Shown piece by piece: positions 1-30,408 of a stretch of 64,000 nucleotides of DNA (positions are counted from its first letter, which is position 1; every line of letters begins with the position of its first letter). Location of the stretch: assembly GCF_025965415.1 (NCBI RefSeq), contig NZ_JAOPWY010000107.1, forward strand, positions 1 through 64,000, given 5' to 3'. The position numbers and the translations under genes are program-made. The notes below the pieces were generated by a model, which saw nothing but the letters and a program-made list of their open reading frames with translations, had not been told where the DNA came from and did no database searches. The DNA comes from Nocardioides sp. Lineage in GTDB: Bacteria > Actinomycetota > Actinomycetes > Propionibacteriales > Nocardioidaceae.

Positions 1-695
1 GAGACGCCCACGTCGAGCACCGCCGCACCGGGCTTGACCATGGCGGCGGTGATGATGCCGGGTACGCCGGCTGCGGCGACCACGATGTCGGCCTGCCGAA
101 CGTGCGCCGCCAGGTCTCGGGTGCCGGTGTGGCAGAGCGTGACGGTGGCGTTCTCGGAGCGGCGGGTCAGCAGCAGGCCGAGCGGGCGTCCGACGGTGAG
201 GCCGCGACCGACGACCACGACCTCCGCGCCGGCGATCTGCACGTCGTGGCGGCGCAGCAGCTCGATCGCGCCGACCGGGGTGCAGGGCAGCGGACCGGAC
301 TCCCCGAGGACCAGCTTGCCGAGGTTCATCGGGTGCAGGCCGTCGACGTCCTTGTCGGGGTCGACCCGCGAGAGCAGCGCGAACTCGTCGAGCCCCGTCG
401 GCTGCTGCACGAGGAAGCCGGTGCACTCGTCGTCGGCGTTCAGCTCGTCGATGACGGCCTCCACCTCGGCCTGCGTGGCCGTGGCGGGCAGGTCGCGGCG
501 GATCGAGGTGATGCCGATCTCCGCGCAGTCCTTGTGCTTGGCGCCGACGTACCACCGCGAGCCGGGGTCGTCGCCGACGAGCACCGTGCCGAGGCCCGGG
601 GTCACCCCCTGCTCCTTGAGGGCGGCGACGCGCTGCGCCAGCTCTGCCTTGATGGTCCGCAGCGTGGCTGCGCCGTCCAGGGTCTGTGCCGTCAC
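1..695 (-). CDS. folD: Bifunctional methylenetetrahydrofolate dehydrogenase/cyclohydrolase FolD (C-terminus cut by window edge)
   Basis: Minus-strand translation from GTG at 695 gives [26 protein letters not shown]...[25 protein letters not shown]...GFLVQQPT...[21 protein letters not shown]; classic FolD motifs. Open at window start. Confidence 0.92.
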
Positions 696-815: not shown

Positions 816-865
816 CCGGTGGTCCACCCACATTCTCGGCACGCGGAACGTGGCTGGACCACCGG
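816..865. repeat. 50-bp imperfect palindrome, copy 1 (20-nt arms, 10-nt loop)
   Basis: CCGGTGGTCCACCCACATTC-TCGGCACGCG-GAACGTGGCTGGACCACCGG; 18/20 arm complementarity; shares architecture with 898-947 and 30359-30408. Confidence 0.85.
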
Positions 866-897
866 TGTGACCGGACACGTGCGAGATCGCCTGCGTG

Positions 898-947
898 GCG
901 GTGGTCCACCCACACTCTGCGGCCCAACAATGTGGCTGGACCACCGC
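898..947. repeat. 50-bp imperfect palindrome, copy 2
   Basis: GCGGTGGTCCACCCACACTC-TGCGGCCCAA-CAATGTGGCTGGACCACCGC; 17/20 arm complementarity; 12 nt beyond the purH stop (minus sense). Confidence 0.85.
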
Positions 948-959
948 CCGAGGCGCAGA

Positions 960-2540
960 TCAGTGGAAGAAGTGCCGCGTCCCGGTGAAGTACATCGTCA
1001 CGCCGGCCGCCTCGCACGCGGCGACGACCTCGGCGTCGCGCACCGACCCGCCGGGCTGCACGATCGCCTTCACGCCGGCGTCGATGAGGATCTGCGGGCC
1101 GTCGGCGAAGGGGAAGAACGCGTCGGACGCGGCCACGGCGGACGAGGCCCGCTCCCCCGCGCGCTCGACCGCGAGCCGGCACGAGTCGACCCGGTTGACC
1201 TGGCCCATGCCGATGCCCACCGAGGCGCCGTCTGCGGCGAGCAGGATCGCGTTGGACTTCACCGAGCGACAGGCGCGCCAGGCGAAGGCGAGGTCGGACA
1301 GGACCTCGGCGGAGGCGGCCTCACCGGTGGCGAGGGTCCAGGCCGCGGGGTCGTCACCCTCGGCCGAGATCACGTCGCGCGCCTGGAGCAGGAGCCCGCC
1401 CGAGATCGACCGCACCTCCGCACCACCGCGCACCAGCGGCGGGCACTCGAGGATCCGGATGTTCTTCTTCGCCTGCAGCGCCTCGACCGCACCGTCCTCG
1501 TAGCCCGGGGCCACGATCACCTCGGTGAAGATCTCGGCCACCTGCTGGGCCATCTCGACGGACACCGGCACGTTGGTGGCGATGACGCCGCCGAAGGCAC
1601 TCACCGGGTCGCACGCGTGGGCCAGGCGGTGCGCGGCGGCCACGTCGTCGGCCACCGCGATGCCGCACGGGTTGGCGTGCTTGATGATCGCGACGGCAGG
1701 CTCGTCGAAGTCGTACGCCGCCCGGCGGGCCGCGTCGGCGTCGACGTAGTTGTTGTAGGACATCTCCTTGCCGTGGTGCTGCGTCGCCTGGGCGAGGCCG
1801 GGCCCCTCAGGCAGGAAGCCGTTGGCGTAGAGCGCGGCGCGCTGGTGCGGGTTCTCGCCATAGCGCAGCACCGCCTCCTTGTTCCAGGTGGCGCCCATCC
1901 AGGCCGGGAAGCCGGAGCCCTCGCTGGTGTCGGTCAGCACGTTGCCCATCCACGACGCCACGTGGACGTCGTACGTCGCGGTGTGGACGAAGGCCTCCGC
2001 GGCCAGGCGCTGCCGCTCGGCCAGCGTGAAGCCGCCGGCGGCCACGGCGGCCAGCACGGCGTCGTACGCCGCGGGCGAGGTCACGATGGCGACGCTCGGG
2101 TGGTTCTTGGCGGCGGCGCGCACCATCGACGGACCGCCGATGTCGATCTGCTCCACGCACTCGTCGGGGCTGGCGCCCGAGGCGACGGTCCGGGTGAAGG
2201 GGTAGAGGTTGCTCACCACGAGGTCGAACGGCTCGATGCCGAGCTCCTCGAGCTGCGCGACGTGCGACTCCAGGCGACGGTCGGCGAGGATGCCGGCGTG
2301 CACGCGCGGGTGCAGCGTCTTGACCCGGCCGTCGAGGCACTCGGGGAAGCCGGTGAGGTCCTCGACCTTGGTCACCGGCAGGCCCAGCGACTCGATCAGT
2401 GCGGCGGAGCCGCCGGTGGAGACCAGCTCGACGCCGGCCTCGTGCAGGCCGCGGACCAGGTCGTCGAGACCGGCCTTGTCGTAGACGGAGACGAGTGCTC
2501 GGCGGATCGCGATGCGGGACTCGGGCTCAACAGGTGACAC
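960..2540 (-). CDS. purH: Bifunctional AICAR formyltransferase/IMP cyclohydrolase PurH
   Basis: [78 protein letters not shown]...; probable GTG start at 2540, inside the longer ORF 960..2618. Confidence 0.95.
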
Positions 2541-2642
2541 GGGACTCCTCGGATGGTTGCGAGTCGAGGCACCCAGGCGTTCGATGCTCTCGCGCGTCAC
2601 TCCCTGGTGGTGGCCCACCTGCGCCAGTCGTGTGGCAGCAGA

Positions 2643-30358: not shown

Positions 30359-30408
30359 GCGGTGCTCCAGCCACATTTCCCGGGTCCCGAGTGTGGCTGG
30401 ACCACCGC
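30359..30408. repeat. 50-bp imperfect palindrome, copy 3
   Basis: GCGGTGCTCCAGCCACATTT-CCCGGGTCCC-GAGTGTGGCTGGACCACCGC; starts 13 nt after the ABC stop codon, in the same sense as copy 2 has after purH. Confidence 0.85.

Follow-up and report, generated by a model that had tools for sequence, protein, structure and literature searches.

Gene 3′ ends in Nocardioides sp. carry a family of fixed-length palindromic elements, three of which lie in the window, the 64,000-nucleotide stretch of DNA analyzed here. Each element is a dyad with conserved hexamers and inner boxes, and neighboring elements form arrays whose gaps are quantized by the turn of the DNA helix, with a marked preference for convergent gene pairs. 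The mechanism best supported by these features is a helically phased array of duplex-DNA binding sites at gene 3′ ends, a reading that we hold to be evenly balanced. An RNA hairpin ranks second and is judged unlikely, and a mobile element ranks third, less probable again. For REP-like palindromes in general, termination, mRNA stability, gyrase targets and selfish DNA have been competing explanations for decades.

Elements 1 and 2 occupy the gap between the co-directional genes purH and folD, and element 3 is followed by a spacer-like remnant, GGGCGTGTCGTACGACGACGCGC (Table 1). The preliminary description of this DNA had reported a tandem pair of identical geometry (20-nt arm, 10-nt loop, 20-nt arm) lying 32 bp apart, with 12 nt between the second copy and the purH stop codon, and had implied a third copy; direct reading of the coordinates bears out the pair and its position, and the third copy was found. 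Allowing up to two mismatches, we counted 8 half-site matches in the window where 1.27 were expected, a number reached in 0 of 100 shuffles, which excludes the dyads as products of chance. No T-tract follows the elements of the window and no terminator-like site was found, so that the earlier statement that they are not canonical intrinsic terminators stands; we rejected that candidate on the same ground, the missing U-tract after the hairpin. The palindromes match no Rfam family, the sole Rfam match in the window being the riboswitch upstream of purH.

Table 1. Palindromic elements and neighboring features in the window
Feature	Position	Strand	Description
folD	1..695	-	Pfam-confirmed; start codon near 695, runs past the window edge
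Element 1	816..865	.	Imperfect dyad of 50 bp; 10-nt loop 836-845 between half-sites 816-835 and 846-865
Gap between elements 1 and 2	866..897	.	32 bp; belongs to the commonest quantized gap class (31-33)
Element 2	898..947	.	Imperfect dyad of 50 bp, 12 nt from the stop codon of purH; half-sites at 898-917 and 928-947
purH	960..2618	-	Pfam-confirmed; stop codon 960-962 faces element 2
ZMP/ZTP riboswitch	2564-2641	-	RF01750, 45.4 bits; upstream of purH
Element 3	30359..30408	.	Single 50-bp dyad behind an ABC-transporter gene, right after its stop codon

A covariance model trained on 56 copies returned 130 two-strand matches, or about 65 elements, in the organism's own 4.2-Mb genome. This genome-wide search, together with the tabulated placement described below, excludes both a repeat of only three copies and one placed at random, and it upholds the preliminary suggestion of a REP/BIME-like family, non-randomly located at gene 3′ ends. 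A pattern scan of a public genome collection found at least 112 stretches; among the matches listed, all come from Nocardioides records, with N. currus, N. pini, N. zhouii, N. glacieisoli and N. cavernae among the carriers. Matches occur in 19 of 61 Nocardioides genomes, the organism's own included, and on a PurH tree most of the strongly positive species share one clade, outside which lie a few diverged carriers. A second genus of the Nocardioidaceae (g19) also carries the element, and single or few matches were seen in two further genera. Across a class-wide sample of 297 genomes from 114 genera, matches at E ≤ 1e-4 were restricted to two genera, both Nocardioidaceae; in the remaining 285 sampled genomes there were none. 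The family is thus found in two or so genera of one bacterial family. Open-licence papers contain no account that we could find of such repeats in the Nocardioidaceae, and the element has apparently not been described before. As a separate observation on the assembly that contains the window, contigs C158 and C195 are both 86006 bp long, and C53 and C116 both 27079 bp, possibly by coincidence or as an assembly artefact.

The element has the outline GCGGTG-N4-inner box (ASCCAC)-18 nt-inverse box-N4-CACCGC, and the half-site logo reads R-GCGGTG-N4-A(G/C)CCAC-ATTC before a variable center. The core GTGGCTGGACCACCG, at first taken to be invariant, is so in the right arms of the window only; genome-wide, its inner TGGAC part (the N4) varies, unlike GCGGTG and ASCCAC, and only 49% of half-sites have a G directly after GGTG. 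Other inner-box types (AGGCAG, AGGAGG, AGCAACC, TTCCACC and GTCAACC) follow this outline too, with matching boxes in the two halves. Element length is 50 or 51 bp (60 or 61 bp in two species) and almost never anything else: pairs of GCGGTG and CACCGC number 293 at 50 bp and 19 at 51 bp, and no other length between 24 and 99 bp has more than 6. In a scan whose center could vary from 8 to 38 nt, all 54 elements of genome G012 measured 50 bp, all 12 of G044 measured 59-61 bp and those of G010 and G013 measured 51 bp, while in G129 61-bp elements of the AGCCACCG type and 51-bp elements of the GGCGACCG type stand side by side.

The same regularity extends to the arrays, which hold 1-7 units. In many species of both genera, neighboring units are separated by 11-13, 20-22, 31-33 or 42-43 bp, with a best period of 10.4 bp, or 10.5 bp when centers are compared. 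With each gap value counted once per species, 0 of 5000 random sets were as periodic, and P = 0.002 when the dominant 29-36 class is left out. A fixed and quantized loop length would be needless for an RNA loop, and the gaps track the helical repeat of DNA; the fixed center length and the helical gaps favor duplex DNA over a hairpin. Loops are near-identical among the units of one array and rarely shared between loci, which indicates that arrays grow by local duplication and leaves little sign of recent dispersal in Nocardioides. The constancy of length and gap, though loops have diverged, is partly due to descent and local duplication, a point that weighs against a protein-based reading. Arrays in N. 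zhouii with identical loops lie at contig ends (the end of L125 and the start of L147). Tandem arrays probably break short-read assemblies, and array sizes are therefore underestimates.

Conservation at orthologous positions separates the parts of the element. In 46 pairs of same-site arrays whose flanks are 82% identical, the outer hexamers are 99% and the inner boxes 95% identical, whereas identity drops to 51% in the N4 and 48% in the loop, nearing the level of unrelated elements (37%); the half-sites are therefore held constant as the rest randomizes.

Placement relative to genes is non-random. By gene calls from a codon-usage script rather than curated annotation, the 140 arrays with usable context comprise 97 in convergent, 37 in tandem and 2 in divergent junctions, with 4 overlapping a predicted gene; the other junctions of the same stretches comprise 99 convergent, 634 tandem and 159 divergent. 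Arrays thus lie between convergent genes in 71% of cases, against 11% of other junctions, and when gaps of at least 60 bp are compared the bias persists (convergent versus tandem, 97/26 against 37/182; odds ratio about 18). From stop codon to element edge the median distance is 24 bp, most often 11-12 bp, and the neighboring genes are ordinary housekeeping genes with no common theme. On contig C137 of the organism's own genome, one locus (L063, 1044-1296) has two diverged copies, separated by 201 bp, within a predicted ORF; these are either in-gene copies or the sign of a miscalled gene.

Presence at individual sites is labile. A comparison of orthologues fetched by the motif (158 present, 3 absent) is biased, as both sides were chosen by the motif, and protein-anchored tests were used; these reveal only partial conservation of orthologous sites, with gain and loss. 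At the purH-folD site the element occurs in 2 of 31 genomes, so that no single site is essential, which weighs against the binding-site reading. The organism's own genome carries an array at the rplQ-side junction, where 5 of 10 other clade members carry one, 1 has a degenerate copy and 4 have none, and at a polyprenyl-synthase junction the array is shared with 3 of 11 clade members. Some congeners without the 50-bp element have a different interspersed repeat (GGTCGAGTAGCGCCGCGACCGAGG...GTATCGAGACCCGGTGA) in the purH-folD gap (L219, L222, L223 and L227).

We suggest that a putative sequence-specific protein dimer most likely recognizes the two inverted half-sites (RGCGGTG-N4-ASCCAC-ATTC) of each element in double-stranded form. 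Neighboring elements would lie on one face of the helix, so that an array could be bound co-operatively. Once occupied, an array behind stop codons, chiefly between convergent genes, would probably constitute a two-sided boundary, which may block or slow RNA polymerase entering the opposite gene or may constrain the supercoils built up there. The fuller proposal, that phased dyad arrays and a dedicated putative DNA-binding protein insulate convergent Nocardioidaceae genes, with a roadblock or a topological clamp taking the place of an RNA hairpin, is put forward tentatively, and we think it more apt to be wrong than right; within it, the several matched site types per genome would imply paralogous binding proteins. 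Protein binding, the identity of the protein and a boundary function or effect on transcription are what we infer from these patterns. A family that lacks a RAYT, has half-site and unit spacing quantized at 10.4-10.5 bp, and combines unpaired, constrained interiors with a convergent preference points to a DNA-bound protein. Confirmation would make it a bacterial boundary of the roadblock type; otherwise there would still be a large REP family that can be dated, in a group for which we found none described in the open-licence literature. One array-flanked gene, recurrent in several species (the L038 group), was considered as a partner and rejected: its product has no Pfam match, its neighbors are SdhB-like and BrkB-like, and the flanking is probably incidental.

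The elements might instead act as RNA, forming two-sided hairpins at mRNA 3′ ends that either terminate transcription without a U-tract or protect against 3′ exonucleases, their symmetry serving both convergent genes. We regard this as improbable, even though it would suit a location just behind stop codons and between convergent genes, and the predicted RNA folding energies of -35 to -42 kcal/mol per element denote a very stable hairpin. Intrinsic terminators without a U-tract are known from actinobacteria as GC-rich hairpins that directly follow stop codons and are symmetric with respect to convergent genes. The Nocardioides elements resemble them in GC-rich hairpin potential past stop codons and in symmetry, but differ in hexamers and boxes conserved in their letters across the family, in an unpaired N4 and in fixed length. 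Conservation of letters, and not only of pairing, argues against the RNA reading, as does the absence of a U-tract. At the rplQ junction, moreover, a canonical GC hairpin terminator stands separately in species with and without the array; the array is therefore not the terminator there.

Pairing tests bear on both the RNA and the duplex-DNA readings. No pairing measure exceeded shuffles in the first alignment, and with shuffles made within species no N4 position had excess pairing; the innermost N4 position has a pairing deficit in Nocardioides (57 observed versus 81 expected, z -4.5), which also counts against RNA. At position 11 (G or C), the homo/hetero/homo counts of 177/99/14 are as predicted for independent halves. 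The inner boxes, by comparison, change together on both sides by type in both genera, as the RNA reading would have it (the g19 result was computed without a pairing filter), and position 13 of genome G154 is paired in 15 of 15 elements against 6.9 expected. A pairing constraint over the full stem is accordingly rejected for the N4 and kept for the inner boxes; the dyad is thus matched as a whole, but its stem is broken by an N4 that is free or deliberately unpaired. The preliminary view that structure is conserved is borne out in part: the inner boxes match, but the N4 is unpaired or anti-paired and the length of the loop is fixed. Such a pattern is compatible with either a homodimer bound to duplex DNA or a hairpin that contains an internal loop, and the hairpin explains the matched inner boxes as simply as the homodimer does, a point against the protein reading.

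Least probable of the three is REPIN- or MITE-like non-autonomous DNA, in which the dyad would be the recognition hairpin of a putative trans-acting mobilizer and its position would reflect tolerated insertions. Patchy gain and loss at orthologous sites would fit, as would genus- and species-specific variants that are uniform across a genome, as in REPINs. In two g19 genomes, furthermore, the palindrome lies inside dispersed repeats of about 600-700 bp with near-identical copies, and may there have a mobile past or a hitch-hiking role. Against this, the Y1/IS200-type transposase (PF01797) was found neither in the organism's own genome nor in 12 element-bearing congeners, while 5-8 of 14 control genomes were positive, so the RAYT/Y1 link proposed at first is not borne out. 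Searches of phage, viral-contig and plasmid collections returned no element matches. The loops, near-identical within arrays and different between loci, speak against recent dispersal in Nocardioides and give little support to the earlier idea of an active miniature mobile element, and tolerance alone would leave the convergent-over-tandem bias unexplained. An integron attC array was rejected, as the 11-43 bp gaps hold no genes, and so was a CRISPR array, because the 50-bp repeats vary in their interior and the spacers of any one array are similar.

The comparison with known repeat families follows the same lines. REPs and BIMEs of enterobacteria, and the GTAG/CGTC-tagged REPs found elsewhere, are short extragenic palindromes in ordered clusters (PMC3733652). 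The Nocardioides element is likewise palindromic, interspersed and extragenic, lies downstream of genes, following stop codons at convergent or co-directional junctions, and is often clustered in ordered arrays. It differs in its fixed dyad of 50/51 or 60/61 bp, in other conserved letters with no GTAG/CGTC tag seen, in helically quantized gaps and in a much stronger convergent preference, and its phylum goes unnamed in the text of that survey (PMC3733652). REPINs share with it two inverted repeats of about 20-25 nt around a variable spacer, a genome-wide spread, species-specific variants and some ordered tandem arrays (PMC3116915). In contrast to REPINs, which are random in extragenic space (PMC3116915), its position is tied to convergent genes, its loop length is invariant, its repeat end lacks the GTAG/GTRG tag (the logo reads R-GCGGTG-N), and neither a RAYT/Y1 transposase nor a sign of recent dispersal in Nocardioides was found. 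By its nature and its location the element counts as REP/BIME-like; with no RAYT gene found in 13 carrier genomes, it does not qualify as a RAYT-REPIN.

Two minor observations concern individual genomes. In the g19 genomes G143 and G078 (L280, L283, L284, L289 and L294), the larger repeats are internally palindromic mosaics with GGTCTCCGAAAGGGCCTCGACCGG arms, together with a second, AT-richer palindrome (GAAGGATTCTTCCTTCTCGTGGA...). On the 4.47-Mb contig C1 of G012, arrays are unevenly distributed, absent from 0.40-1.35 Mb and dense at 3.18-3.87 Mb.
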